From positions 1-33,718 of the IMG/VR virus record IMGVR_UViG_3300042465_003868: a stretch of 33,718 bases of DNA, one strand, 5' to 3'. The translations under genes were made by a program, and so were the position numbers. Positions 8,649-33,718 of this stretch are shown here, in pieces. The notes under the pieces are model-generated. The model saw only the letters and a list, made by a program, of their open reading frames with translations, was not told where the DNA came from and ran no database searches. Position 1 is the stretch's first letter. The number at the start of each line of letters is the position of its first letter. This DNA is from a virus.

Positions 8649-9719
8649 CTAGACGTAGCCCGCCTTCGAGAGCTTCTTGCCCAGCTCCTCAAGGCGACGC
8701 CGCTTCTCGGGCGGGAAGAACACGACATCCTTGCGGAACTCGCGTTCGAGGCCATCGAACTCCTGCTGATCGACCGACGGCGACGGGCTGCGCGTGCCAC
8801 CTTTGGCGGCGAGGCTGCGCGGCGCCCCGGCCACCGACCGGAGTTGCGGGGTTGCCGACCGAACCGGCGCCGGATCGGGCCCTGCGTCGTTCGAGGCCAT
8901 GCCCGCCGCGATGCGCCGCATGATCCGCGCCCGCCACGCCACGTTGTCAGTGATGTCGGCCTCGATCAGCTCTTCGAGGTGGGGCGCGATGTCCGGGAAG
9001 AACTCGGCTACCTGATCCGCGACGCCCGTCTCGCGCGCCACCGCGATCAGGTCCTCGGCCGTGTAGGCGACGGCCCCCGTCTGCTGCATGGCGTTGCGCA
9101 GGCTCAGGTTCAGGAAGTTCATCGCCTCGCCCGTCGTGTGCATCACCGGGCCGTGGGCCTCAGGATTCTCGGACACGAACGCCTGGACGGTGCGCTGCGC
9201 GTGCGCTGCCTTGACCTGCTCGGGCGTCGGCTTCATGCGCTCTTCGAGGGTCCGCGCGGCCCGCTCCTCGATCAGCCGATCCAGCTCGGTCGGATCGACG
9301 TAGACGCTCGACCCATCCTCGGACACCCGCACCGGCACGCCAGCCGGCTTCTTCGGGGCGGCCTCGACCGCTACGGGCTGGACCGGAGCCGGGGCGAACC
9401 GCATCCCCTCAGCCTGCTCGCGAGCTCGCGCCGCTTGCCGGAGCTTCGCAATCTCGGCTCTCAACGCCTTCTCGCGGCGCTCAGCTGCGGTCTCAGGCTG
9501 ACCCTGCGTCTTGGCAGCGACCGGCGGCGCCTCATCGCTGGGCGCATCCTCGACCGTCTCGTCGGGCTCGGGCGCCGGCTCTTCGTCGGCCACCTCAGCC
9601 GCAGGCGCCTCTTCCTCTCGCGCGGGCGGCGCCTCGCCTTCCGGTTCGGGCTCGGCCTTGAAGCCAAGCAGCTCCTCAAGCTCATCCTGCGGGGTCATCT
9701 TCTCTGCGGTCTGACTCAA
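8649..9719 (-). CDS. Scaffold-type capsid assembly protein
   Basis: The 356-residue product is very acidic and Pro/Glu/Ala-rich over residues 1-75, then contains a charged coiled-coil region (about 80-100 and 140-180), a helical middle and a basic helical C-terminus. This is the typical composition of phage scaffolds, which act inside the procapsid and bind the coat with a basic C-terminal helix. The start is a rare TTG at 9719 that overlaps the portal stop (TTGA). It is preferred over the ATG at 9698 because AGGAGG sits 7 bases upstream of the TTG. Its place between portal and coat supports the call. Confidence 0.75.
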   Translation of the reverse strand: MSQTAEKMTPQDELEELLGFKAEPEPEGEAPPAREEEAPAAEVADEEPAPEPDETVEDAPSDEAPPVAAKTQGQPETAAERREKALRAEIAKLRQAARAREQAEGMRFAPAPVQPVAVEAAPKKPAGVPVRVSEDGSSVYVDPTELDRLIEERAARTLEERMKPTPEQVKAAHAQRTVQAFVSENPEAHGPVMHTTGEAMNFLNLSLRNAMQQTGAVAYTAEDLIAVARETGVADQVAEFFPDIAPHLEELIEADITDNVAWRARIMRRIAAGMASNDAGPDPAPVRSATPQLRSVAGAPRSLAAKGGTRSPSPSVDQQEFDGLEREFRKDVVFFPPEKRRRLEELGKKLSKAGYV

Positions 9720-11824
9720 GCGGAAACCTCCTGGCGTTTCGCCATGTCGTTTTGATGCGCGAGCTGCAACGTGCTGAACATGAGCGCCTTCTCGTTGTCG
9801 TCAGCTTTCTCCCAGATGTCGAGCAGCCGCATCGCGGCGTCCTTCTGCTGCTTGTCGGAGGTCAGTTCTTCCTGTCTCTGGTTGTGGCGCGCGGCCTCCT
9901 GCGCCTTCATGCCCTCGATCATCAGCATCCCGCGCGTCTGACCCTCGAAGGTCTTGGCCTCGCGGTCGGCAGCCATCGCCGCAGCCTGCGACGCCTCGCG
10001 GGCGTACTTGCGCAGCCGCTCCCGATCCGTCCGGCTCGTGGTCGCCTTCTCGACGATCATCTCCGGGTCGATCGGGACGCCGGCCTGCTTCATCTCGAGC
10101 ATCACCTGAAGCTGCATCATGCGCAGCGTGCTGTTCTCGGTCGTGTGCTCGAACTCGAGCTTCCAGTCCATGTCCCGGATCATGCGCAGATCGGCCTGCG
10201 ACTTCGGCACCTTTTGGCCGTTCGGGCCTTCCTCGACCTCGATCAGCTGCCCGCCCTGAATCACGAACCGATCCTCACTGCCGAGTATCGCCGCGATCTG
10301 GTCATCGGGCATCGAGCGCGTGATCGACTCGACGACACGCCGAACGACCTCGCGCTGCGAGTCCTCGAAGTTGCTGAAAGGATCTTGCACCGACTGGCGC
10401 GACTTGTTGTACCGAATGGCCACCGTCACGCCGGCCTGCGCGTGCTCGGCGGGAATCAGGTTCGATGCGCTGGGGATGCCGCTGATCTCAGACAACAGAT
10501 TCACCGAGTTCTCGGCACGGGCCATCACCGCAGGCGACGGCGGCGTCGGGTTGCGGGGAACGACCGCACCCTCGGACAGACCACCCTTGCGCACGATTGC
10601 GACGCCACCCGGGCGGCGCAGCTCGGCGCGGAACTGCTCTTCGTCGGGGATCGCGTCCTTCTCGGCCGTGACGCCCGGCGCCGCGCCCTGCGCGATGTAC
10701 TCGATCTCGAGGCTCTTGCTCTTGTTTAGCTCCTGCTGCGGGTCGAACAGGTTGCGCACGAACCCGTACGCGGTGCCCGTCTCCTCGTCGATCATGTACG
10801 TAAACGGCACGATCGAGAAGCCATCGAACGGCCCCGCCTCGTCGTACTCCGCGAGCATGGTCGAGCCGATGAACTCGCACACCCGCACGCGCTCAACGTC
10901 GGTCTTCTCCATCTGGATCGGCATGCCGTACACGTCAGCGGCGAGCTGCGCATTCTCGGCCTGGTCCTGCGTCACCTCTTCGCGCCGCCCCGATTGCAGG
11001 TCGGTGACGAACCACGCCGGCGCCCATTCCTTGTACTCGTACCGAATCACCCGGATCTGGTGCTTGCGCCGGTCGGCGTAGTAGTGGTTCGAGTCGTCGT
11101 CCCGGTAGTCTTCCTTCAAGTCGACCGCGCCAAGGCCCGACTCGCCGATGCGGAAGTTGGACAGGTCGTCGCTGTCGCCTTTGCCCATCAGCGAATCGAA
11201 CTCAGCCGCGAACTCGGGATAGGCGTGCTCGAAGGTCGCCTTGTTCATCCAGCGGTCCCAGAACACGTAGCCCGCATCGCTGCGATCCGGCTCGATCGAG
11301 GTCGGGTCCCAATGCACCTCGAACGGCATGACGCGGTGAAGATTGACCGTGATCCAGCCCGATCCCTTCGGCGACGGCACCACCTCGACCTGAATCGACG
11401 ACTCACCCGAGATGACACCCGTGCGGAACTGCCGCGCGCTCTTGCGCTCGTAGCGCGCGTCCTGAAGAACCTGCTCTTTCACGAGGTCGATCACGTCGGC
11501 GACGACGCGCGAGCGGTTCGAGCTCGACGAGACGACGGGCCGGCGCTGCGCGTCGGCGTACATGCCCATCATGGTCTCGATCTTCGGCTTCACGATGTTG
11601 AACGTGAGCACGGGCCGTCCCTGATCGCGCAGGTACGCGATGTCGTCGGCGGCCCACTGGCCCTCCCCCTCGGTGTTGTGGAAGAACTGCTGCGCGCGGT
11701 GTGCTTCCGCGTGGGCGTTCTTGTGGTGATCGCACGCTTCCTCGAACCGCTTGCGAGCGGCACGTAGCTTCGTGTCGTCTCGCTCGATCGGGTCTTCGGC
11801 TTCGGTCTCGGACTCGTAGGCCAT
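9716..11824 (-). CDS. Portal protein, P22 type
   Basis: The 702-residue product matches P22-type portals in length and layout. An N-terminal helical region with a GQRAQQFFHNT-like segment is followed by the conserved middle with the RYEYKEWAPAWFV stretch, FSIVPFTYMIDEETGTAYG, NLFDPQQELNKSKS and then a long helical C-terminal barrel rich in Glu and Arg. The portal forms the dodecameric channel for DNA packaging and binds the terminase. The ATG at 11824 overlaps the preceding stop (TGATG); a GTG one codon earlier is also possible. It is preceded by terminase genes and followed by the scaffold, the usual order. Confidence 0.88.
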   Translation of the reverse strand: MAYESETEAEDPIERDDTKLRAARKRFEEACDHHKNAHAEAHRAQQFFHNTEGEGQWAADDIAYLRDQGRPVLTFNIVKPKIETMMGMYADAQRRPVVSSSSNRSRVVADVIDLVKEQVLQDARYERKSARQFRTGVISGESSIQVEVVPSPKGSGWITVNLHRVMPFEVHWDPTSIEPDRSDAGYVFWDRWMNKATFEHAYPEFAAEFDSLMGKGDSDDLSNFRIGESGLGAVDLKEDYRDDDSNHYYADRRKHQIRVIRYEYKEWAPAWFVTDLQSGRREEVTQDQAENAQLAADVYGMPIQMEKTDVERVRVCEFIGSTMLAEYDEAGPFDGFSIVPFTYMIDEETGTAYGFVRNLFDPQQELNKSKSLEIEYIAQGAAPGVTAEKDAIPDEEQFRAELRRPGGVAIVRKGGLSEGAVVPRNPTPPSPAVMARAENSVNLLSEISGIPSASNLIPAEHAQAGVTVAIRYNKSRQSVQDPFSNFEDSQREVVRRVVESITRSMPDDQIAAILGSEDRFVIQGGQLIEVEEGPNGQKVPKSQADLRMIRDMDWKLEFEHTTENSTLRMMQLQVMLEMKQAGVPIDPEMIVEKATTSRTDRERLRKYAREASQAAAMAADREAKTFEGQTRGMLMIEGMKAQEAARHNQRQEELTSDKQQKDAAMRLLDIWEKADDNEKALMFSTLQLAHQNDMAKRQEVSA

Positions 11825-17396: not shown

Positions 17397-17663
17397 CTAC
17401 TTCATTGCGCTGCGCACAAGGAAGTCGTCCCCGGCGCACTCGAGCTGCTGAGCCAGCCGCATCGCCACCGCGGCAACTTGGATCGCTTCACGCTGGACTG
17501 AAAACCGCTTGTTGGCCCGAATCGCATCGAGCAGTTCGGCCACCTCCTCGGCGAGTACGCCATAAGCTTCGTGCGTCGACGTGAACCAGCCGTACTTGCG
17601 GGATGATTCGTCGGCTTCGTCTTGGATGGCCTTGGCGACGAGCTTGGCGTCCTTCTTCGTCAT
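17397..17663 (-). CDS. MazG-like nucleotide pyrophosphohydrolase
   Basis: The 88-residue product starts at the ATG at 17663, sharing an A with the preceding TAA. It contains STHEAYGVLAEEVAELLDAI (about residues 29-48) and then REAIQVAAVAMRLAQQ (about 58-73). The EExxE motif and a second helix with a conserved acidic residue fit the short MazG-like proteins of phages. Enzymes of this superfamily cleave nucleoside triphosphates to monophosphates and pyrophosphate, and in phages are proposed to adjust nucleotide pools or the stringent response. Here the second metal-binding acid is less clear, so activity is not assured. Confidence 0.65.
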   Translation of the reverse strand: MTKKDAKLVAKAIQDEADESSRKYGWFTSTHEAYGVLAEEVAELLDAIRANKRFSVQREAIQVAAVAMRLAQQLECAGDDFLVRSAMK

Positions 17664-19858
17664 TAGAAAAGCCTCCCCTGCCCGCTGGCTACGGAAAGGT
17701 TCTCGCACGCCGCCTTGAAATAGCTGGGCTTCAGCTCGGCCCCGACGAATCGCCGACCGCAATCGAGAGATACGACGCCCTCTGATCCGATGCCGGCAAA
17801 TGGCGAGAGCACGAGATCTCCGGGGTTGCTCCACAGCTTGAGCGCGCGGCGAATCACCTCGATCTGAAGCGGACAGATGTGCCGCTCGTCCTCGTGGTCG
17901 CGTGCGCTGCGGAATTGCAGCGTGTCGCTCGGGTTGATGTCCATCCAAACGGGCGATGCGTACCGCTGCCACAGCGACACAGGGAACTCTTCGGACGTGT
18001 GCGACACGCGCTCGAGGTTTTCGCCCGGCTTGCGCATCGTGACGAGGTAGTCCGGAATGCCCTGCCGAGAGAGGCACGAATCCTTCTTGATCTGCTTGTG
18101 GAGCAGTCCAAGCGCCTTCGTACGCTGCATCGCGGTAACGGGGTCCTTCCAGATGCACACCTGCGAATGCAGAATCCAGCCCGCATCCTCGAACGCGCGA
18201 ATCAGCATCCCGCGAAAGTCCTTCAGCCCGATGAATCCGTCGCGGGCCTTTGACGAGGGAAGATCCATGCAGTGAAACGAAACGAGCCGGCCAGGCTTCG
18301 TCACCCGGTAAAGCTCCGGGATCAGGAATTTGAAGTGATCGAAGAATTCATCCTCATCGGTGCAGTTGCCCATGTCTCGAGCGTCGTCGGTGTAGGTGTA
18401 GAGCGACGCGAAGGGAGGGGAAAACACCGAGTACCCGATGCTCTCGTCGTCCATCTTCCGCAGCACCTCTACGCAATCGCCATGGTGCATCGTCCATCCG
18501 TCACCCGTCCGAACCGCGCCCGTTTCGATCGTGTCGAGCCGTTCCGATTGTCCGCCGATCTCTTCGATCATCGTTTCCCTCATCATGCCGACCATCTCGC
18601 GGGCCATCTCGTCCGCCGCGGCCTGCTTCTTTTGAATGTTTCGGAGTACCGCCGCCTCGATGTCGGTCGATACGATGTGCACTCGAACAGCCTCCTTCTG
18701 GCCGAACCTCCAGCACCTTCGCACCGTCTGATAGAACTGCTCCCACGAGTGGGACAGACCGACGTAGGCGATGTTGTGGCAATGCTGCCAGTTCATGCCG
18801 AAGCCAGCGATCTTCGGCTTGGTGACGAGGGCTCGATGCGTACCGTCCGAGAACCCAATCAGCCGAGAACGCTTATCGTCCTCTGAATCCGACCCAGCGA
18901 CCTGAACGGCGCCCCGGATAGACTCGGTGAGCATGTCACCTTCGTCGTTAAGCTCGGCCCACACGAGCCAAGCCTCGTCGTCCGCATTCGCGAGCTCGGC
19001 CACCCGCTCGACTCGGCGGCTCATAGTCTTTTTTCGAGCCTGCCGCTGCGAGTTGATGTCGAGCACGGGAAGGGCAAAAAGCTCACCCTCCTGCACGATA
19101 TCGGTCGTGATGTGATGCTCGATGAACTCGAGCGAAGGCAGGTTGAATCCCGCATCGTCGTATCCGATGTCGGACGGCTTCTGGATCATGACGGCCCACG
19201 ACGCGACCCATGACCAGAAATCGCTCTTCGCGTGCCCCTTGAGTCGCCAGTCCTGCGTCTTAGCCGCATCGTGGACGAAGAAGCGGGCCAGCATCTCCAT
19301 CGTCGACATCACGCCCAGAAACTCGGCATGATTGCCCAGCTCGGTGTGATCGTTCGGGGCCGGCGTCGCGGTACACGCCAGCCGGTACGGGATGCAGGCC
19401 GCACCCTCGATGATGGCAGTCCGGATCTTTCCAGTCTGGCTCTTGAGGATCGACGACTCGTCGAGCACGAGTCCGGCAAACAGGGAAAGGTCGAACCGGT
19501 GCAGCTGCTCGTAGTTCGTGATCGTGATGTGCCCGCACTGGCTGCCGTCCCGATTGACGGTCGCCTCGATCCCGAAGTTGGCAGCTTCCCGCGCGGTCTG
19601 CTCTGCCACAGCAAGCGGCGTCAGAATCAGGACGTTGCCGGGGATCTGCTCGGCCCACGCGAGCTGCTGGATCGTTTTCCCGAGTCCACAATCCTCAAAA
19701 AGCGCGGCGCGGCCCTTTCGGAGCGCCCACCGAACGATGGCCGCTTGCCACGGGAACAGGTTGGGATTCAGGTCTTTCGCCTCAAAACCCACTGAAGCGG
19801 CCCGCACCGCCTTTGCTTGAATAAAACTCGAATAGTCCACTTGCATCTCTCCTCCCAT
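17663..19858 (-). CDS. SF2 helicase / DNA methyltransferase fusion
   Basis: The 731-residue product starts at the ATG at 19858 (TGATG overlap with the regulator). The N-terminal half is a superfamily 2 (SNF2-like) motor: Walker A DCGLGKT (56-62), motif II LDES (132-135), motif III TATP (163-166), then a second RecA-like lobe with KIAGFGMNW and motif VI QTVRRCWRFGQ. The C-terminal third is a DNA amino-methyltransferase with SPPF (480-483) before FAGIG (687-691), the beta-class order; SPPF is common in N4-cytosine enzymes but does not exclude N6-adenine. It could protect phage DNA from restriction, drive replication, or both. No endonuclease partner is seen. Confidence 0.85.
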   Translation of the reverse strand: MGGEMQVDYSSFIQAKAVRAASVGFEAKDLNPNLFPWQAAIVRWALRKGRAALFEDCGLGKTIQQLAWAEQIPGNVLILTPLAVAEQTAREAANFGIEATVNRDGSQCGHITITNYEQLHRFDLSLFAGLVLDESSILKSQTGKIRTAIIEGAACIPYRLACTATPAPNDHTELGNHAEFLGVMSTMEMLARFFVHDAAKTQDWRLKGHAKSDFWSWVASWAVMIQKPSDIGYDDAGFNLPSLEFIEHHITTDIVQEGELFALPVLDINSQRQARKKTMSRRVERVAELANADDEAWLVWAELNDEGDMLTESIRGAVQVAGSDSEDDKRSRLIGFSDGTHRALVTKPKIAGFGMNWQHCHNIAYVGLSHSWEQFYQTVRRCWRFGQKEAVRVHIVSTDIEAAVLRNIQKKQAAADEMAREMVGMMRETMIEEIGGQSERLDTIETGAVRTGDGWTMHHGDCVEVLRKMDDESIGYSVFSPPFASLYTYTDDARDMGNCTDEDEFFDHFKFLIPELYRVTKPGRLVSFHCMDLPSSKARDGFIGLKDFRGMLIRAFEDAGWILHSQVCIWKDPVTAMQRTKALGLLHKQIKKDSCLSRQGIPDYLVTMRKPGENLERVSHTSEEFPVSLWQRYASPVWMDINPSDTLQFRSARDHEDERHICPLQIEVIRRALKLWSNPGDLVLSPFAGIGSEGVVSLDCGRRFVGAELKPSYFKAACENLSVASGQGRLF

Positions 19859-20076
19859 CATAGTTCCAAGTCCTCCCCTTCCGGGTCCCCGATCACCATC
19901 TTGACGCCAAGCGCCCTGAGCAGCGCATCGGCGTTGATGACGGACGGGATGTGCCCCTTGTACCAGGTGCTCACGTTCTGTTGACTGAGCCCCGCCTCGC
20001 GCCCGATCTCGGAATACGTCTTGCCCGAGCCCCGGATCGCGCGGCGGATGGCTTTCGTAAAGAGTGTCTTTCTCAT
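19858..20076 (-). CDS. XRE-family helix-turn-helix regulator
   Basis: The 72-residue product starts at the ATG at 20076; an in-frame TTG at 20112 lies inside the -35 box and is rejected. The segment TYSEIGREAGLSQQNVSTWY (about residues 19-38) is a classical Cro/CI-type helix-turn-helix. There is no C-terminal protease domain, so it is Cro-sized. No ribosome binding site precedes the ATG, and the candidate -10 box ends 6 bases upstream, so the mRNA may be leaderless, as for lambda cI from PRM. It faces the divergent rightward operon across an inverted repeat, the expected operator. Confidence 0.85.
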   Translation of the reverse strand: MRKTLFTKAIRRAIRGSGKTYSEIGREAGLSQQNVSTWYKGHIPSVINADALLRALGVKMVIGDPEGEDLEL

Positions 20077-20082
20077 GCCGGC

Positions 20083-20112
20083 ATCGTAACCGGCCCGATC
20101 GAGCCCCGTCAA
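20083..20112 (-). promoter_or_regulatory. Leftward promoter of the regulator operon
   Basis: On the minus strand TTGACG (20112-20107, 5 of 6) and TACGAT (20088-20083, 4 of 6) are 18 bases apart. Transcription would start about at the ATG at 20076. The -35 box overlaps one half of the inverted repeat. Confidence 0.55.
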
Positions 20113-20145
20113 CTATTTTTATTGGACCCGCATTTTTTAGTTGAC
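20108..20145. promoter_or_regulatory. Inverted-repeat operator between divergent operons
   Basis: GTCAACTA at 20108-20115 and its exact reverse complement TAGTTGAC at 20138-20145 are 22 bases apart around an AT-rich core (T runs at 20116-20120 and 20133-20138). Each half contains a TTGAC -35 element, one for each direction, so a bound regulator would cover both promoters. The likely ligand is the adjacent XRE regulator. Confidence 0.6.
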
Positions 20146-20169
20146 TCGGCTTGCGAGGTGGCCGATAGT
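20141..20169 (+). promoter_or_regulatory. Rightward promoter
   Basis: TTGACT (20141-20146, 5 of 6) and GATAGT (20164-20169, 4 of 6) are separated by exactly 17 bases. The start of transcription would fall near 20176, just before the AAGGAGG ribosome binding site (20178-20184) of the first rightward gene. Confidence 0.65.
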
Positions 20170-20189
20170 GGGCCTCGAAGGAGGACGCC

Positions 20190-20726
20190 ATGTCCGCAAA
20201 CACCGAACGCGAGATCCGACTGACCGAGATCCCCACCGAGCTGCGCAACCTGCGCGCTGAGATCGAGCGGTGGCGCGAGGCGCACGCCCTTGCCTTGACG
20301 CGAGCCGGCGAGCTCGAGCGCCAATTCAAGGCCGCCGTCGAGGCCCGCGACGCCGCCCGCAAGACAGTCGACGACCTCACCGACCACTGCGATGCGCAGG
20401 CCCGCAGGATCGCCTCCCTTGAGCTGGACTGCCAAGCGCACGTCACGGTTTCCGACGACTGGCGGCGCCGGGCGCAGGCCAACTTCAGCCGCGCCGACAA
20501 GCTGGCCGAGTGGATCGAGCAGCAGGCGAAAGACTGCGACTACAGCCCCTCCGACCTGTCGGACCTACTCCTCTCTGCGGGCGTCGAGTGCCGGTCCTGC
20601 GACGGTGCCGGCTTCATCCGCGACGAAGAGTTCATCGGCGATCCCGGCTCATGGACCGGCTACCGCACGCGCAACGTGACGGACGACTGCTCGGTGTGCC
20701 TCGGCGTGGGGAAGCTGCTCCGATGA
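20190..20726 (+). CDS. Coiled-coil protein with DnaJ-like zinc motif
   Basis: The 178-residue product starts at an ATG 5 bases after AAGGAGG. Residues 10-110 are a charged coiled coil. The C-terminus has two CxxCxGxG elements, CRSCDGAG (about 134-141) and CSVCLGVG (about 167-174), like the zinc-binding repeats of DnaJ. The two pairs can bind one zinc ion. It is the first gene of the rightward operon, so it is probably made early. Function is unknown. Confidence 0.75.
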   Translation: MSANTEREIRLTEIPTELRNLRAEIERWREAHALALTRAGELERQFKAAVEARDAARKTVDDLTDHCDAQARRIASLELDCQAHVTVSDDWRRRAQANFSRADKLAEWIEQQAKDCDYSPSDLSDLLLSAGVECRSCDGAGFIRDEEFIGDPGSWTGYRTRNVTDDCSVCLGVGKLLR

Positions 20727-25921: not shown

Positions 25922-26147
25922 TTAATACGTTCCGAAGGTGAGAGGAACTGAACGGGAGCGGGCCGTAGTCCTTTACCCACCGGGCCTCGGCGGCGGACAT
26001 CGGTAGCTTGGCCGCGTAGGCCCCGTCGAAGAACTCCCAGAACTTCTTTGCCCGCTTCGGGTCCGCCTCGATGTACTGATCCAGCTTGTCCCGCCGGGCG
26101 TGGGCGATGTCGGCCAGCATCTCTTCGACGGTGGACTGCTTCGGCAC
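25896..26147 (-). CDS. Small hypothetical protein
   Basis: The 83-residue product starts at a GTG that shares its G with the previous TAG. It is helical and basic, with a conserved-looking RWVKDYGPLPFSSSHLRNVL stretch (about residues 51-70). Its first residues (MPKQSTVEEML) resemble the start of the following phosphoesterase (MPGTKSAAEML). No known family; it lies between the lysis genes and the phosphoesterase and may be coupled to it. Confidence 0.55.
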   Translation of the reverse strand: MPKQSTVEEMLADIAHARRDKLDQYIEADPKRAKKFWEFFDGAYAAKLPMSAAEARWVKDYGPLPFSSSHLRNVLSARHQKRG

Positions 26148-26410
26148 TACGCCACCCCCCAGATGATGAGCCCGACCGCCAGGCCGCCGAGCGCGGTGAA
26201 CGCCATGTCAGCCGCCAGATCGCCCCAGGACGCGACGGGCCGCTGGTCGAACTCTCGGACGGTCCCGAGCCACAGCGCCGCGCACACGGCGCCCACGGCC
26301 GCGATAGGCACGGCTACGGCGGCAGCCGCGACGCCCCCGATGGCGACGTGCAGGAGTTGGTCGAGCCACCAGCGCCAGTCTTTCACGCGCTCAGACAGGG
26401 GCCTACTCAT
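26147..26410 (-). CDS. Holin-like or other small membrane protein
   Basis: The 87-residue product has a short basic N-terminus with DWRWWLDQLLH, then three hydrophobic stretches (about residues 20-34, 36-48 and 68-86) broken by REFDQRPVASWGD. This size and layout fit a small phage holin, but membrane proteins of other function look similar. The start overlaps the end of the Rz1-like gene by 8 bases, placing it in the lysis cluster. Confidence 0.55.
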   Translation of the reverse strand: MSRPLSERVKDWRWWLDQLLHVAIGGVAAAAVAVPIAAVGAVCAALWLGTVREFDQRPVASWGDLAADMAFTALGGLAVGLIIWGVA

Positions 26411-26678
26411 CGCCGCGGATCTCCCGCAAGTCTTCGGCGAAGACGTGCCCGATGACTCGGGCCACCCAGTCCTGCCCAGGACGCGCCGGCTCCTCGATCA
26501 GCCACTCGCTGATGTCCTGCGCCTCGACGGGATTGGGCGCCGGGCACTCGCTCCAGACGACCTGTCTAGTGACGCATCCGGCGAGCAATGCGCTGGAGGC
26601 GACGGCGCAGAATGCGAGCCGCCTCGGATCTCGACGCAGGAGGTTCAGTAGCCATCTCGACACGCTTCTCCGCCGCAT
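26403..26678 (-). CDS. Rz1-like outer-membrane spanin lipoprotein
   Basis: The 91-residue product starts at the ATG at 26678 inside the Rz-like gene, in another frame. It has a basic N-terminus, a hydrophobic stretch and the lipobox ALLAGC with Cys35, where the lipid would be attached. The mature part of about 56 residues is Pro-containing. The nested arrangement with the Rz-like gene is the classical Rz/Rz1 layout. Together the two span the periplasm and fuse inner and outer membranes at the end of lysis. Confidence 0.75.
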   Translation of the reverse strand: MRRRSVSRWLLNLLRRDPRRLAFCAVASSALLAGCVTRQVVWSECPAPNPVEAQDISEWLIEEPARPGQDWVARVIGHVFAEDLREIRGDE

Positions 26679-26808
26679 CCGCGTCCTCCTCGGCTTGCTG
26701 GCGCTTCTCGCGCTCGGCGCCGTGGTCCTGAATCCGCTTCCACCCGACGCCGACGCCCACGAGGGCGACGATCAGGGCGACAAGCCCCTTGACCAGCTCG
26801 GTGGTCAC
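26566..26808 (-). CDS. Rz-like inner-membrane spanin
   Basis: The 80-residue product starts at a GTG at 26808 overlapping the holin-like stop (GTGA). It has one N-terminal membrane segment (LVKGLVALIVALVGVGVGW, residues 5-23) followed by a charged coiled coil with many Glu, Ala, Gln and Arg residues (about 28-75). This is the standard layout of an i-spanin but shorter than the usual 110-150 residues. The Rz1-like gene is nested in its second half. Confidence 0.75.
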   Translation of the reverse strand: MTTELVKGLVALIVALVGVGVGWKRIQDHGAEREKRQQAEEDADAAEKRVEMATEPPASRSEAARILRRRLQRIARRMRH

Positions 26809-26978
26809 TTCACCGCGGCCCGCAGCGTCGCCGCCGCGCCGAAGCCGAGGAAGCCCAGAATCGGGGTCGCCTGATCCTGCGTCAGAACGCCCGCGAAGAC
26901 GAGGCCCTGCACGATGGCGCCCGCCGCCGCGAGGATGTAGGTCCGGTTGCCCTTAAACACGTCCAGAATCTTGTCCAC
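26805..26978 (-). CDS. Small holin-like membrane protein
   Basis: The 57-residue product starts at the GTG at 26978, one base after the amidase stop, with GGGGGTG upstream. It has two hydrophobic segments (TYILAAAGAIVQGLVFAGVL at about 13-32 and ATPILGFLGFGAAATLRAAV at about 37-56) linked by TQDQ. This fits short two-segment holins, which make holes that release or activate the amidase. It lies between amidase and spanins. Confidence 0.65.
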   Translation of the reverse strand: MDKILDVFKGNRTYILAAAGAIVQGLVFAGVLTQDQATPILGFLGFGAAATLRAAVK

Positions 26979-26979
26979 G

Positions 26980-27390
26980 TCACACCCCCAGTAGCGCCCG
27001 GACATCGAGGCCCGGGCATTCGGTTGCCGTCTTCCCACCCGCCGCATCTCGGTGGCCACACACCACCAGGCCCGGCACGAGCTCGCAGGCCGCGTCGATG
27101 AATCGGGACAGGGCCTCGATCTGGGCCTCCGTCCAGCGCCGATCCTCGCGCGTGTTGTCCCCCATCACGCAGATCCCCCACGAGTCGTGGTTTGCACCTA
27201 GAGCGTGCGCGCCCTGCACCGTCAGCTCGCGGGTCGCGTGAAGCCTGGCCTGTCCGTCGATGACGCGGTGGTATCCGATGTCGGAGAACCCGCGCTCCCG
27301 ATGCCACCCGCGAAGCGTTTCGACCGTCGTCTCGCGCGGGCTCGCCGAGTGGTGGATGATGAGGCGCTTGACGCTGGCTAAAGGCTTCAC
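26980..27390 (-). CDS. N-acetylmuramoyl-L-alanine amidase endolysin
   Basis: The 136-residue product starts at the ATG at 27390, overlapping the previous stop (ATGA). It matches the T7 lysozyme type of amidase: IIHHSAS near residue 13 (His ligand), Y40 in GYHRVI, GHRD with H113, and K120-x-x-x-x-C125 in KTATECPG. These bind zinc and cut the bond between muramic acid and the stem peptide. No signal peptide is present, so release depends on a holin. The size is that of a single-domain endolysin. Confidence 0.9.
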   Translation of the reverse strand: MKPLASVKRLIIHHSASPRETTVETLRGWHRERGFSDIGYHRVIDGQARLHATRELTVQGAHALGANHDSWGICVMGDNTREDRRWTEAQIEALSRFIDAACELVPGLVVCGHRDAAGGKTATECPGLDVRALLGV

Positions 27391-27764
27391 GGTGCACCCC
27401 CGAACGTGCGCGACAGCCAGCCCGCGATCCCGCCGAAGGCCGCAGCGACAGCCGCCTGAACGTACCCGTGCCGCTTCCCCGCGGCGCTCTTGACCTGCGC
27501 GTCAACCCGCTGGAACTCGCGCTCGTCCGCCTTTTCGTGCGCTCCGAACCGGGCCGAGAGGTCCGTCACCTGCGTCCCGAGGACGGTCATCGCGCCGCGC
27601 AGCTCCGAGGTGCTCTTCGTGAGCTGATCTCGAGACTCGCGCGCGTGCGATTCGATCCTCTCGTGGATGCGCTGGCGAGCCTCGTCGGCCTGCTCTTTGT
27701 GAGCGTTCAGCCGTGCGTCGACCGCGTTGCGCAGGTTCTCCCCGAGCGCGTAGATAGCCTGCAT
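27387..27764 (-). CDS. Coiled-coil protein with C-terminal membrane segment
   Basis: The 125-residue product starts at the ATG at 27764; a longer GTG start overlaps the PEP-CTERM gene. It is a long coiled coil (about residues 5-95) followed by a hydrophobic C-terminal tail (YVQAAVAAAFGGIAGWLS, about 101-118). This resembles phage XhlA-type proteins that support holin function. It could also anchor another lysis protein. It directly precedes the amidase gene. Confidence 0.65.
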   Translation of the reverse strand: MQAIYALGENLRNAVDARLNAHKEQADEARQRIHERIESHARESRDQLTKSTSELRGAMTVLGTQVTDLSARFGAHEKADEREFQRVDAQVKSAAGKRHGYVQAAVAAAFGGIAGWLSRTFGGAP

Positions 27765-27774
27765 GGTGTCGGGA

Positions 27775-28068
27775 TCAGCAGGCACGGCGCCGTCTCCCCA
27801 GCGCGCACAGCGCAAGCGCACCCGCCAACAGGCCGACAGACATCGGCTCCGGCACCGCGATCGCGTTGGAAACGGTGCCGTAGTTCTCCGGGTGCCCGAG
27901 CAGGTACTTGGCCCGAATCCACCCGCTCTCGACGTTCACCTTGGCCTGCTTGCAGCCTTCGGCCGGCGCCTCGTCGTAGTGGGCAACCCGCGTCCACGTC
28001 ACACCATCGGCGCTCCACTCCATCTGGACGGGCTCCGAGCTGTAGAACTTCACGGTCTTCTCGGGCAT
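27775..28068 (-). CDS. PEP-CTERM sorting-signal protein
   Basis: The 97-residue product starts at the ATG at 28068 behind AGGAG that overlaps the TAG of the preceding gene. Residues 1-70 look like a small beta-sandwich of Fn3 type (EWSADGVTW... ending YGTVSNAIAV). Residues 73-97 are a complete PEP-CTERM tail: VPEP, a hydrophobic stretch (SVGLLAGALALCALG) and RRRR. Such tails are recognised by exosortase in the host inner membrane. No signal peptide is present, although exosortase substrates normally have one. The gene lies in the same frame as the preceding exported beta-helix gene, one TAG apart, so a readthrough fusion would have both signals. Confidence 0.82.
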   Translation of the reverse strand: MPEKTVKFYSSEPVQMEWSADGVTWTRVAHYDEAPAEGCKQAKVNVESGWIRAKYLLGHPENYGTVSNAIAVPEPMSVGLLAGALALCALGRRRRAC

Positions 28069-28077
28069 CGTCGTCTC

Positions 28078-30639
28078 CTACGGCAGCGTGCAGGTCGTGC
28101 CTTCGTATCGGATCTGGGCGGGTAGCTTCCCGAGTGTTCCGCTGAAGTCGTCGTAATAGGCGCCCATCTCACCGAACTCCATTGCCTCGTTGCACCACCA
28201 CTCAGGCTTCTCGCGCCAGAAGATCGACGTGGGCTCTTCGCCAACCTCAGCCGCCCAATTCACCTCTAGGCCAAGGTGGTTCTCTCCGTCCTCGGTCAGC
28301 AGGATGTCGGTGCGCGTCGTGGTGTTTCGCGTGTCGGGAATGCCGTCTGCGTTGCTGTCAACGCCGTCGATCAGGCCGTCGAGGTCGCAGCTTCCGCACT
28401 TGTTTCGGAACACGGCATTGTTGACCGTCTGATGCGGAGCGAGGCAGTTGTACGGGCTGGTGTCTGTGTTGTCACAGCCAGTCAGGCCGCGCGTTCCCGT
28501 TCCGTTGATGACCGCGCCGTGGCCCGCGTTGAGGAAGATCGACCAGTTTTCGTTCGCTGCGCCCTTCTGGTTGGCGCCTCTCTGGCCGCCCAATACGGCG
28601 CTGTGCCCGTAGTCCGGGAACACGGAACCGCCAATCGGCGCCGTCGTTGCTCCTCTGCTCGGTCTGCGATTCTTGTAGAAGACGAGATTTGAGCCTTCGC
28701 CGGCATCGTCGGGTGCGCGGTTCGACGTGTCCATGGTTACAATCGACGAGTCTTGGTCGTTCATCTCGTAGATGTTGCCGGGTGATCCAGCGTTGCCGTG
28801 ATGAAACGGACCTCGGCTCTGACCGCTTTCGTCCGGCGGGTTTCGCAAATAGTTCGCCGCGTAAACACACCCTGTGCAGCCTTGCATAATCATGTGCTGT
28901 TCAGGGTTGATGAATACGTTGTTGTAGATTTGCACGTTCGACGCAAAGCCGTTTGCGTACATCGTGCCGCCGCCGAACTGGTCAAAGCGCGATGCCCATC
29001 CAGTCCCAACGGTCGTGTCGATATCAAACCCGCTGACCGTCCCGTCTACGTTGTCGAGGCGCACGACCCAATATCCCGGTGTTCCGGCGGTGAACGTGCC
29101 CGACGTACTGACGAACTGCTTGTCCTTGAACAGCGGCTCTCCGATTCCGTCCGTGATGTGCAGCCGCGTGTCGCCCGTGCTTGCCCAGATCGTATGGGCC
29201 GACAATCCGGCGACGTGGATCGTGACCGGGTTCGTCTTGTTGACTTGCAGGATCTTGCCGGACGCTTTCGCGTTCTCGACCCAGAAGTTTTCCCATGTCA
29301 TCCCGGCGACCGTGATAGACCCCGCCTCTGCCCCAGTCCCACCGAACTCGACCGCACTCGGCGCTGCGGTTCCGGTGAACTTGCCGCCATAGATACCGCC
29401 TCCGTAGGCATTCAGGAATCGCATGACAGCGCCGCCGATCTTGAGATCCATCGTCCAGTTCAGATTCACGAACCAGACGTTTTCAGCGATCACCTCAGCC
29501 GTTCCCGTCGAGGCCGTCCCGTTGCCGCAGACGCCGGTCGCCACGATGTCGCAGCGCGACGAGCCCATGCGTTCGATCTGCACCATTTCCGGGTTTCCCT
29601 GTGAACCGGGCGAGCCGGGAATCCACGCGGTGGGTCTGTAGGTGTCAGTAAAGTTGGTCGCGGTACAACTGCTGGAATTGGTGCAGTTAGTGAACGTCGT
29701 CCCATCATTCTCACCCCACCAGTTTGCGTCCGGGTGAAGGTTGAACGGGGGCGGGTTCTCGACTTGGACTCGGTTGGTCCCAGGCGCACCAAGTAGGCCG
29801 CACAGCTCGCCAGACGTGTCGGAGGCAGGGCTCCGCACGCCCGAGCTGTCCTCGACGCAGGTCACGCGCGTCAGGTAGTTGTAGCCATCCGTTCCTTGCC
29901 CGGGGATTGGATCTGACTGGATGCGCACGATGTCGCCAGGACCCCACGCGCTCGCTCCTGAAATGGCGAGGCTGCACGTCAACTGGTAGACCCGCGCGCC
30001 GTACTCGTCGGTCGGCGTGATGTCGCACGTCGTGATGCCGGTGCGGCGGCTGTCGCCGACGTGGAACGAGCGCGTGCGGTGCTCGCCAGCAGACGAACCG
30101 GACAGATACCCGTCCGGGTGCATATTGCCCACCGCTACCGAGTCGGTGCGGATCACCTGATTAATCCCGCACACCGTATTCCCGGGCGGGCAGTAGAACT
30201 GCAAGTTGTCCGTGGTGTTCGGGATGGTAAACTCGGCGCCCGATCCGGCAGCCGTGACGTACCAGTTCACAGCGCATCCGGTCGGCAGAAGGATGACCGA
30301 GTTCTTCCGACCGCCGGCCAAGCTGAGGTGGGACTCGATCGTGTTCTGCAAGACGGAGTGGAGAGTTGCGCCGCTTCCTGTCGTAGCCGAGCACGTTGAC
30401 GCCGACAGGTCGAGCGTGTTGGCGGGCAAGTAGATCGGGTCCGTGTGTGCCGGGGGCGGCCCGATGTATTTCGGCGCCACGATCCGCGTCGAGTAATCGA
30501 AGATCGACCCACCCGGCCCGAACGTCGTCGACTCCGCGAGCGTGACGAACGTGTCCGCCGGAGGCGTGCCGGTCGTCTGCCTGCCGCCCGAGATGAAGAT
30601 CGGACCCACGAACGCGAGAACGAGAAGCGCGCGCAGCAT
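28078..30639 (-). CDS. Exported right-handed beta-helix protein
   Basis: The 853-residue product starts at the ATG at 30639 (TGATG overlap). It begins MLRALLVLAFVGPIFISGG, a signal-like hydrophobic start. The middle part (about residues 390-700) is a beta-helix with repeats of the form NVQIYNNVFINP and IYEMND. Several cysteine pairs occur (CTNSSSC, CTGC, CGSC). A calcium-binding thrombospondin type 3-like stretch lies at about 752-769 (DLDGLIDGVDSNADGIPD). Beta-helix proteins of phages often bind or degrade surface polysaccharides. It ends in TAG with the PEP-CTERM protein continuing in the same frame. Whether it is a tail spike or a secreted protein is not settled. Confidence 0.78.
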   Translation of the reverse strand: MLRALLVLAFVGPIFISGGRQTTGTPPADTFVTLAESTTFGPGGSIFDYSTRIVAPKYIGPPPAHTDPIYLPANTLDLSASTCSATTGSGATLHSVLQNTIESHLSLAGGRKNSVILLPTGCAVNWYVTAAGSGAEFTIPNTTDNLQFYCPPGNTVCGINQVIRTDSVAVGNMHPDGYLSGSSAGEHRTRSFHVGDSRRTGITTCDITPTDEYGARVYQLTCSLAISGASAWGPGDIVRIQSDPIPGQGTDGYNYLTRVTCVEDSSGVRSPASDTSGELCGLLGAPGTNRVQVENPPPFNLHPDANWWGENDGTTFTNCTNSSSCTATNFTDTYRPTAWIPGSPGSQGNPEMVQIERMGSSRCDIVATGVCGNGTASTGTAEVIAENVWFVNLNWTMDLKIGGAVMRFLNAYGGGIYGGKFTGTAAPSAVEFGGTGAEAGSITVAGMTWENFWVENAKASGKILQVNKTNPVTIHVAGLSAHTIWASTGDTRLHITDGIGEPLFKDKQFVSTSGTFTAGTPGYWVVRLDNVDGTVSGFDIDTTVGTGWASRFDQFGGGTMYANGFASNVQIYNNVFINPEQHMIMQGCTGCVYAANYLRNPPDESGQSRGPFHHGNAGSPGNIYEMNDQDSSIVTMDTSNRAPDDAGEGSNLVFYKNRRPSRGATTAPIGGSVFPDYGHSAVLGGQRGANQKGAANENWSIFLNAGHGAVINGTGTRGLTGCDNTDTSPYNCLAPHQTVNNAVFRNKCGSCDLDGLIDGVDSNADGIPDTRNTTTRTDILLTEDGENHLGLEVNWAAEVGEEPTSIFWREKPEWWCNEAMEFGEMGAYYDDFSGTLGKLPAQIRYEGTTCTLP
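28333..28386 (-). other. Calcium-binding type 3-like repeat codons
   Basis: Encodes DLDGLIDGVDSNADGIPD in the beta-helix protein, with Asp/Asn at the spacing of calcium loops in thrombospondin type 3 and similar repeats. Calcium loops fit an extracellular protein and often link domains. Confidence 0.5.
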
Positions 30640-31502
30640 CAGTCGGCACCCCCGTCAACCCAGGTTCCCGAGCGGCCGAGGTTGATCCATGTCGTCGTGT
30701 CAATCGCGAGCAGGCAGATGAAGTCGCCGAGGTTTCCGGCCGAGTCGATCGCGTCGGCCGTGCCCACCCCCACGCCGTCGAGCACGATCTGGTCGCCCGC
30801 CGCCGCGTCGAGCGTGATGACGCCACCGCCGTTCGCGTCGTAGAAGCAGGAAGACAGGCCAGGCTCAGCGCCTGGGAGCGTCACGTCGATTCCCGTGCCG
30901 CTCGTGTAGTAGTAGAACGTGCCGAGCATCTGGACATTCACAAGCGTTGCAGACGACGTTCCGACCGTCGTCACGGCCGTTGTAGCCTGAATGGTCCCAG
31001 TCGTCGCGAGGCTCTGAGTCCCCGAAAGCACCATGAAGTCGACATCGGTAGTCGCCGCGTTGATCTCCGCCGCCGTGTCCCACTCGGTATCGAGCGTCGC
31101 GCCTGAAGCCATCCGGGCCGTCGCCAGCGTGCCCGCCGTCGCCGTCGTGATGTCGAGCCCCGTCCCGATCTTCGACCCGGACAAGCTCCCGTCTGCGAGG
31201 TCCGCAAGGTCCGCGTCGTACGCCTGCACGGTCGAGCCGATGTCGGTATCGAGCACGATCTCCACGCTGTCGATCGTCGTCCCCGCAGTCAACGCACAGG
31301 GCGCCGAGGTACAGGTGTCGGTCGCGAGGATCGCATCAAGCCGGGCGTCGTTGTCGTCGATCGCCGTCTTCGCGGCGGTGAAGTTCGCGTTGACCTGCGA
31401 CGCGACCGCAGTCGTCCCGGCCGTGAACGTGTTGGTGATCGTGTACGAACTGCCCCATGCCAATGAGGGCAGGAGCGCCAGAAGAAGAACCAAGCGAATC
31501 AT
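30639..31502 (-). CDS. Exported fibre-like protein
   Basis: The 287-residue product starts at the ATG at 31502. It begins MIRLVLLLALLPSLAWGSS, a strong signal peptide. The mature start carries NTFTAGTTAVASQVNANFTA (about residues 23-42), a motif of trimeric fibre N-termini, then heptad-like sequence and a C-terminal beta domain from about 185 with CFYDANGGGVITLDAAAGD. The C-terminal domain could bind a surface ligand. Overlap with the following gene (TGATG) couples it to the beta-helix protein. Confidence 0.78.
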   Translation of the reverse strand: MIRLVLLLALLPSLAWGSSYTITNTFTAGTTAVASQVNANFTAAKTAIDDNDARLDAILATDTCTSAPCALTAGTTIDSVEIVLDTDIGSTVQAYDADLADLADGSLSGSKIGTGLDITTATAGTLATARMASGATLDTEWDTAAEINAATTDVDFMVLSGTQSLATTGTIQATTAVTTVGTSSATLVNVQMLGTFYYYTSGTGIDVTLPGAEPGLSSCFYDANGGGVITLDAAAGDQIVLDGVGVGTADAIDSAGNLGDFICLLAIDTTTWINLGRSGTWVDGGAD

Positions 31503-31504
31503 GC

Positions 31505-33088
31505 TCACCCCCATTCGTCCGTGTCCCAGACAAGCGCGTCCCAATTCGTGTTGACCGTTTCCCCGGGCGTCTCACCGCAGCTCGGCCGCTGGACGCCATC
31601 CGATCCGAGCACCATCCCTGAGACGGTGCACCGCTGAATGAAGCCCTTCGAGTCCGCGTCGATGTCGATGTTGCCCACCACGTCGAGGTCCCGACCCTGG
31701 AACTCGTCCACGTCGTCAACCTCGAGGCCGTTCTGCGTCCCGTTGAAGTTGTTCCGGTGCGTTCGGACGTTGCGGACCCGCATCCCATCGACGCACGAGT
31801 CATCCGTGTTCGAGTTATAGGACGCCGTGATCTGTGCGATGTCGTAGGTCGAGTCCCCGAGCTCGATGCCAGCCGAGTTGGCCCGGGTCGTTCCGTTGCA
31901 GGCGCCCCGAACGATGTTGCGCGTCAGATCCACCCGCATGTCGTTGTAGGTCGTGCCGGCCAGCCCGATCTGGATGCCGGCGCCCCATGCGTTGTCGATC
32001 GTGTTGCCTTCGAGCCGGGTCGAAAACCGAGACGCCGCGTAGGTGTTCCCGTTGATGACCTGGATACCAATCCCCACGTTGTCGGATGTAGTGTTCGGGG
32101 TATAGGTGAAGCCGGTGTCCGTGATCGTGTTGCCGCTCGCCGTGCCATCGCCCTCGTTGAAGATGATTCCGGCGATGCCCGCCCCGTCGATGGTGTTGTT
32201 GTGAAACTGGCAGCGCCGCGAGTTCGTAAAGCACTCGATTCCGATCTTGGTCACGTCCGAGATGGTCGTGTTGACCACTGCCGAATCCGAACCGCCGGAG
32301 AGTTGCACGCCCTGAGCCGTCTTCGTGACCGAGTTGGTGGTCGCGTCCAGCGGGACGGCGAGCGGGGTACAGAGCGCGACCGTGCAACCGGCGCCCGTCA
32401 CGGTCGAGTCCTGAACGGTGGACGCGAACGGATCGGTCAGCTGGATGCCCGTCGACACGGTGTTGCGGACCTGCACGCGCAGCAGGCAACTGCGAGTAGA
32501 CCCCCCGAGAGTGTTCCGGGTGTAGAACCCGTTGGCGTCTGTCGAAGTCTGGCTGCCCGTGTCGCAGATGCCGTTGTTCGGCGTCGTGTCCGTGCAAGCG
32601 GTCCTGGCCCCCGTGGTCTGCTCCGATCGGCGACCGTCGAGAATCACGTCTTCCAGCCTGATTCGGGGCGTGATGTCCTTCGCGTGAATGATCGCAGCGT
32701 TGACGCCAATCTCGGCTTGCAGGATGGGCGGGTTGGACGGGTCGGACCCCCGGATGACCACCTCGCCGCTCGGCGACACCGAGGCCGTCTTGCTGTAGGT
32801 CGTAGTCAGCGCCGTGTCGCCGAAGATGACGTTGGTGTCCGTGTACGTCCCGGGCGCGAGCTCGAGGATGCAGCCCGACCCGCAGTTGGCCATCGCGACC
32901 GTATGCAGGTCCGATGCGCTCGTCACGTCGACCGGCGTGAAGGCCGGATCGTCCAGCGTCGAGCAGTCTACCCACGGGTCCTCGACGATGTCGGGATCGG
33001 GCGCAGACGGCCCCGCACGCGGGAAGCGCCCCTCGATCGCCGAGGCCGGAAGGGCCAGCAGCAGCGCGAGAAGGACGGCCAACCTCAC
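31505..33088 (-). CDS. Exported right-handed beta-helix protein
   Basis: The 527-residue product starts at the GTG at 33088, which overlaps the preceding stop (GTGA); frame further upstream lies within the previous gene. It begins MRLAVLLALLLALPASAIEG, a textbook signal peptide with cleavage after ASA (residue 16). The mature protein opens with a VTSASDLHTVAMANCGSGC segment and PGTY, as in pectate lyase-like proteins, followed by parallel beta-helix turns such as RLEDVILDGRRS, NTTISDVTKIGIE, HNNTIDGAGIAGI and RLEGNTIDNAWGAGI. Cysteine pairs are frequent, fitting an oxidising location. No catalytic residues could be assigned. Confidence 0.82.
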   Translation of the reverse strand: MRLAVLLALLLALPASAIEGRFPRAGPSAPDPDIVEDPWVDCSTLDDPAFTPVDVTSASDLHTVAMANCGSGCILELAPGTYTDTNVIFGDTALTTTYSKTASVSPSGEVVIRGSDPSNPPILQAEIGVNAAIIHAKDITPRIRLEDVILDGRRSEQTTGARTACTDTTPNNGICDTGSQTSTDANGFYTRNTLGGSTRSCLLRVQVRNTVSTGIQLTDPFASTVQDSTVTGAGCTVALCTPLAVPLDATTNSVTKTAQGVQLSGGSDSAVVNTTISDVTKIGIECFTNSRRCQFHNNTIDGAGIAGIIFNEGDGTASGNTITDTGFTYTPNTTSDNVGIGIQVINGNTYAASRFSTRLEGNTIDNAWGAGIQIGLAGTTYNDMRVDLTRNIVRGACNGTTRANSAGIELGDSTYDIAQITASYNSNTDDSCVDGMRVRNVRTHRNNFNGTQNGLEVDDVDEFQGRDLDVVGNIDIDADSKGFIQRCTVSGMVLGSDGVQRPSCGETPGETVNTNWDALVWDTDEWG

Positions 33089-33718
33089 GAGCACGACTCG
33101 CCGGCCGAGGGCGCCGCGGTGCCGTCGAAGTTGAGGCAGCCGCGGGCGTTCGCGCCGATGCCGGAGCCGCTTCCGACCGTGGCCGTGCAGGTGCCATACC
33201 CGGCCGGCGTGCCGCCCGCGTTGACGTTGCACCCGCAGTAGACGTGCGCCACGCCACCGCCGCCGCCCGAGCTTTCTGCGCTGTTGCCCATGAACGAGTT
33301 GAGCGCCAGCACGTCTTCGTGGGAGAAGTCGTCCGGCGTCAAGCCGGTTCGGTCATTCGGCGCAACGGTCGTATCCGTGTCGATCGCCGCGAACAGGCAG
33401 GCGTCATAGGCGCTCTTCGTCGCCTTGATTCGGCCATTGGTGAAGTGATTCCGCACGATCGAGGCCGACTTCGGCGAGGCAATCGTGGGGCTCGTGTTCA
33501 GAGCGATGGCCGCGGTCACGTTACCGGCCAACTGCTGCGCCATCCTGACGCCAGTCGTGTCGAATCCGTCGATCACGTTCTGCTCGATCGGTACCGTCGT
33601 ATCCGCGCAGTCGAACCACGCGACCGTCCCGTTACGAGACAGCGATACGCTCGACCCGATGCCTAGCGTCCCTTCGATCGTCAGGTTGCGGATCGTGTTT
33701 CGACGCGCGCCGCAGGTG
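33085..33718 (-). CDS. Beta-helix protein, N-terminus outside the window
   Basis: The frame is open from the TGA at 33085 to the right edge, giving the last 210 residues of a longer protein; the in-frame GTG at 33576 is not needed as a start. Beta-helix turns are visible (RNTIRNLTIEGTLGIGSS, NVIDGFDTTGVRM, SIVRNHFTNGRI), then a glycine run and a cysteine-rich end (VYCGCNVNAGG...GTC...RGCLN...ESCS). It is translationally coupled to the next beta-helix gene (GTGA) and is probably exported as well, though its start is not visible. Confidence 0.75.
   Translation of the reverse strand, partial: TCGARRNTIRNLTIEGTLGIGSSVSLSRNGTVAWFDCADTTVPIEQNVIDGFDTTGVRMAQQLAGNVTAAIALNTSPTIASPKSASIVRNHFTNGRIKATKSAYDACLFAAIDTDTTVAPNDRTGLTPDDFSHEDVLALNSFMGNSAESSGGGGGVAHVYCGCNVNAGGTPAGYGTCTATVGSGSGIGANARGCLNFDGTAAPSAGESCS

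Follow-up and report, generated by a model that had tools for sequence, protein, structure and literature searches.

A small conserved phage protein with a PEP-CTERM-type tail, encoded between spike-like and lysis genes

Background

A C-terminal PEP-CTERM tag is used by many bacteria for sorting proteins to the surface, and, together with exosortases, PEP-CTERM proteins are responsible for organising the surfaces, flocs and biofilms of many environmental bacteria. The substrates of exosortase (EpsH/XrtA), recognised by the models TIGR02595 and PF07589, end in Pro-Glu-Pro, a hydrophobic segment and an Arg cluster. Haft et al. (2006, PMC1569441) placed this motif at the extreme C-terminus, with a median of about three residues beyond it, found signal peptides in about 97% of PEP-CTERM proteins, and reported that PF07589 recovers just 22% of TIGR02595 members. 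The nearest viral counterparts described are 13 acquired viral proteins of the family TIGR03118 in hot-spring viruses, which carry a putative C-terminal exosortase interaction domain and were reported, with no function given, as acquired from cells (PMC11003980, 2024). In the mainly open-access literature searched, we found no description of a phage PEP-CTERM protein used with a host exosortase. An earlier note on this DNA had likewise known of no phage use of exosortase, which is roughly right for that literature, but has to be qualified by the TIGR03118 proteins and by the recurrence of PEP-CTERM-type tails in IMG/VR records (see below). Here we describe a 97-residue protein that resembles exosortase substrates at its C-terminus but, unlike them, is small, has no signal peptide and is phage-encoded between spike and lysis genes. 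Like the TIGR03118 proteins, it is virus-encoded and has a putative exosortase-related region at its C-terminus, but it belongs to a different family.

Results and discussion

A PEP-CTERM-type tail in a 97-residue protein

In the window, i.e., the whole 33,718-base stretch of DNA that was analysed, profile searches identified a portal of the P22 type, a head protein of the Phage_capsid_3 family and a terminase of the gpA type. On its minus strand, a 97-codon ORF (27775..28068) encodes a protein whose C-terminus, as the earlier note had read it, consists of VPEP, a hydrophobic stretch and RRRR. A search against TIGR02595, which that note had proposed as a check, supported the assignment: the tail (27784..27855, minus strand) scored 21.6 bits over residues 72-95 in a protein search and 23.4 bits (E 5.8e-6) in a six-frame search of the window, against a cut-off of 16. 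With PF07589, the tail scored 17.7, below the Pfam cut-off of 20.7, which is what Haft et al. describe for most TIGR02595 members (PMC1569441). Two residues follow RRRR, so that the motif lies at the extreme C-terminus as in other PEP-CTERM proteins. The hydropathy maximum (residues 76-90) marks the sole hydrophobic stretch, and residues 55-75 carry a net charge of -2, with RRRR at the end of the chain. A set of 300 simulated windows yielded 4 ORFs that combine PEP, a hydrophobic stretch and a basic end (about 1.3% per window, and these ends were only loosely similar), and 352 kb of control phage DNA yielded none. Judged by its sequence, the PEP-CTERM-type tail of the 97-residue protein is genuine.

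Sequence inspection and hydropathy revealed no signal peptide, the N-terminus (MPEKTVKFYSSEPVQMEW) having no hydrophobic stretch, in agreement with the earlier reading, and no in-frame start was found between the upstream TAG and the ATG; in this respect the protein departs from other TIGR02595 proteins. For residues 1-66, structure prediction from an alignment of two sequences gave a small beta sandwich. Of the five models one was good, with pLDDT values mostly of 70-87 (means of 72-87 per block over residues 1-60), and a fold search with this model returned no match below E 0.001.

Conservation in a second phage

Among the related records, one (L002) represents the same phage as the window (98-100% identity across the aligned parts), while another (L003, in the 43-kb record G002) belongs to a different phage, whose head, portal and terminase genes are unlike those of the window and which has the spike, PEP-CTERM and lysis region in common with it. 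The 97-residue proteins of these two phages are 96% identical. Of the base changes between their genes, 21 are synonymous and 5 non-synonymous, which corresponds to a dN/dS of 0.061, and the 23 changed codons lead to just 4 amino-acid changes. PEP, the hydrophobic segment and RRRR are unchanged in kind, with a single M to L change within the segment and one altered codon in the Arg block (CGC to CGA, still RRRR), and the tail exceeds the curated TIGR02595 cut-off in both phages. Because dN/dS is this low against the second phage, the ORF appears to be translated and a real gene; on the substitution pattern, we conclude that it is a real, strongly conserved phage gene. In the collections searched, it was present in only two independent lineages, and no relatives of its product were found in isolate phages, plasmids or species genomes.

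The surrounding genes were less constant. Upstream lies the gene for an 853-residue spike-like protein (28078..30639, minus strand) with a signal-like N-terminus (MLRALLVLAFVGPIFISGG), as had been proposed, a variable body (43% identity between the window and L003) and conserved ends; no relatives of it were found outside the same two phages. The earlier description of this protein as a beta-helix found no support among the family models (mean pLDDT of the predicted structure 27.5, no usable model) and the Pfam Beta_helix match (40.8 bits) fell on a 575-codon ORF two genes upstream. This ORF encodes a beta-helix protein with a signal-like N-terminus (31505..33094, minus strand; start inferred from a relative), and the gene between encodes a fibre-like protein (30639..31502, minus strand) with a signal-like N-terminus (MIRLVLLLALLPSLAWG). 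Downstream, a 132-residue, coiled-coil-like protein that has a hydrophobic stretch at its C-terminus (27387..27785, minus strand; 99% amino-acid identity, dN/dS 0.041) is followed by an endolysin of the Amidase_2 type (26980..27390, minus strand), whose place is taken in a related phage by a DUF5675 endolysin (L014, 7740-8159), the lysis regions otherwise matching. Small membrane and lipoprotein-like genes (26147..27059, minus strand) are, by inspection, a likely holin and outer spanin. Since the spike body is only 43% identical and the endolysin family differs, the 97-codon gene has been retained while its neighbours were exchanged.

Possible function of the 97-residue protein

The reading that we prefer, and to which we give an even chance of being correct, is that the 97-codon ORF represents a late phage gene in its own right and encodes a separate membrane protein, with its beta domain and PEP motif outside and a tail that comes from, or is like, a host system. 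Membrane proteins follow the positive-inside rule, and some N-terminal tails, if short, are known to be translocated with no signal peptide. Lying between the spike gene and the lysis genes, the gene would be expressed when ribosomes that end the spike at its TAG restart on the overlapping AGGAG to make the small membrane protein. The C-terminal hydrophobic segment would insert into the inner membrane, and the RRRR on one side, with no positive charge just before the segment, would orient it by the positive-inside rule. The topology is thus probably domain-out and tail-in, as far as charge and hydropathy indicate; the beta domain and PEP motif would reach the periplasmic side although the protein has no signal peptide, and the motif would be exposed at the presumed site of exosortase action. 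The host's PEP-CTERM system is the most likely source, or model, of the tail. In an exosortase-bearing host, it could be cut and the protein sorted to the surface, while in a host without exosortase the protein would stay as an anchored periplasmic domain. The neighbouring genes, for exported spike-like proteins and for lysis, suggest a role at the cell envelope late in infection. The absence of a signal peptide, which about 97% of PEP-CTERM proteins have, counts against this reading, so that export is putative.

More tentatively, the 97-residue protein may be a host-exosortase substrate, inserted into the membrane with no signal peptide and then, late in infection, sorted to the surface or matrix of the host. 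It would thus exemplify a broader and largely undescribed tendency, among phages whose hosts have exosortase, to carry genes for PEP-CTERM proteins. We regard this fuller version as possible but somewhat doubtful. If phages do encode PEP-CTERM proteins of their own, they may alter or exploit the host surface during infection, with exclusion of other phages, matrix remodelling or easier release as possible uses. The conserved 97-residue protein would also be a handy minimal test of exosortase action on a substrate without a signal peptide.

Alternatively, the protein could be a member of the lysis cassette, i.e., a holin-, antiholin- or spanin-like membrane protein whose likeness to PEP-CTERM proteins is convergent. 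The arrangement of the genes and the build of the protein are consistent with this: the gene directly precedes and overlaps the genes ahead of the endolysin, its product is short with a single membrane segment, and its 3' end, including the RRRR codons, overlaps the start of the 132-codon gene, whose GTG and ribosome site lie there, so that the Arg codons serve a second purpose as this ribosome site. However, the PEP motif is exact, correctly positioned and above the curated cut-off in both phages, and an N-terminal beta domain such as that modelled here would be unusual in holins. We therefore consider a lysis protein with a convergent tail unlikely, though a serious competitor to the separate membrane protein that we favour.

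The junction with the spike gene

The earlier note had drawn attention to the junction between the two genes, and its description of the sequence was accurate. The 853-codon and 97-codon ORFs are in one frame with 9 bases between them (CTG CCG TAG GAG ACG ACG ATG), the first ending with TAG at 28078-28080, and an AGGAG overlaps this TAG, 6 bases ahead of the ATG, as a ribosome site of the second gene's own. Separate translation, which the note had allowed for, is sufficiently explained by this AGGAG. The note's more far-reaching proposal was a single chain across the TAG, and in one form this would be a minor readthrough product, made alongside the free spike, that joins signal peptide, spike body and PEP-CTERM anchor into a full-length exosortase substrate. 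Such a product would supply exactly what the 97-residue protein is missing, as the upstream protein has the signal-like N-terminus, and the shared frame, the short spacing and the identical junction of the second phage fit it. That phage keeps TAG, AGGAG and ATG inside a stretch of 68 bases identical in both phages (28055..28122, minus strand) spanning stop, AGGAG and start, and has no sense codon in place of the TAG. Identity of this length is unexceptional, as several identical runs as long or longer occur in the shared module, one of them of 488 bases. The same-frame junction is thus one inherited state and therefore gives no independent evidence for fusion. The note had suggested looking for relatives in which the genes are fused or have sense codons between them; none was found in the collections, where the gene occurs in two lineages, and the sole independent relative (L003/G002) keeps the TAG.

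Other properties of the junction also argued against readthrough. TAG terminates 11 of the 37 genes judged reliable in the window and is thus an ordinary stop; the window, possibly an incomplete genome, contained no tRNA genes, and neither a recoded TAG, a suppressor tRNA nor a stimulating RNA structure was found in it. RNA at the junction folds less stably than shuffled sequences (z +1.8). Since TAG is an ordinary stop, no tRNA or junction structure was detected and the 97-codon gene has its own AGGAG, we rejected readthrough as the main reading, and even a minor product of this kind seems very improbable. A conserved RNA element at the junction was considered separately and rejected, there being no stable structure and nothing exceptional in the 68-base identity. 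The 488-base run lies at window 31044-31531 in a region otherwise about 88% identical to the L003 phage, and was probably, judging by this contrast, acquired through recent exchange.

Two further explanations concern the origin of the ORF itself. It might be a functionless remnant of a PEP-CTERM gene that was captured from a host and of which the C-terminal part is left, the signal peptide having been lost, as the missing signal peptide and the lack of any relative beyond the two phages could suggest; this is very improbable and strongly disfavoured by the substitution pattern, as dN/dS is 0.061 and the two phages, although diverged, both keep the frame, the start, the ribosome site and the tail intact, which would not be expected of a remnant. 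Some ORF with a loosely similar end does arise in simulated windows at the low rate given above, but conservation and the codon substitution pattern have already refuted a chance ORF with a PEP-like end, to which we attach next to no probability.

PEP-CTERM-type tails in other viral records

Tails of this type were found in other IMG/VR records, at least 48 of them in at least 44 records, in a scan with two restricted DNA patterns (VPEP, a gap and CGN repeats) filtered by frame, hydrophobicity and stop. From the first scan, 23 records were searched again with TIGR02595, and all of them passed. Where the genes were complete, the proteins mostly had a signal-like N-terminus (judged by eye and with a crude score rather than SignalP). 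Phage genes lay beside the PEP-CTERM genes in the three records checked, while other records may include host flanks: one gene (2146-2790 in G048, L169) directly precedes the portal gene, another (about 9095-9815 in G026, L166) precedes terminase and portal genes, and the third (9245-9898 in G032, L168) lies beside tail-fibre and baseplate genes. The 97-residue protein is likewise virus-encoded with a PEP-CTERM-type tail, whereas the other proteins are longer, mostly have signal-like N-termini and have bodies unrelated to it. Among viral PEP-CTERM proteins it is thus odd in its small size and missing signal peptide.

Several viral records carried two PEP-CTERM genes apiece. A recurrent family of signal-peptide-bearing PEP-CTERM proteins was also seen in eight IMG/VR records (L051, L061, L090, L142, L148, L178, L205 and L274), with about 34-63% mutual identity. 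A search of 50,697 isolate phage records gave no match to two of the recurrent viral PEP-CTERM proteins.

Host and other features of the phage

Attempts to place the host gave no assignment, and no provirus was found. Species genomes contained no match to the 97-residue protein or to the integrase of the related phage, the isolate-phage neighbours of TerL and portal (about 20-28% identical) were too distant to assign a host, and relatives of the helicase-DNA methylase fusion came from many unrelated hosts. This fusion (window 17663-20500) shares about 58% identity with a Synechococcus phage S-CBS3 gene, and its coding sequence probably begins downstream of the first codon of the ORF.

Among 19 records of unrelated phages sharing fibre motifs, none had a PEP-CTERM tail, in a search that gave no positive-control match in these records but does match other viral records. 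Fibre motifs related to the 301-residue protein occur in 19 other viral records, and in 8 of them the fibre, by inspection, also has a signal-like start. Within this phage group, signal-peptide-like starts were present in at least five proteins of the fibre- or beta-helix-like kind, encoded at 770-2068, 2007-2309, 30639-31502 and 31505-33094 of the window and at 2588-5182 of L003.
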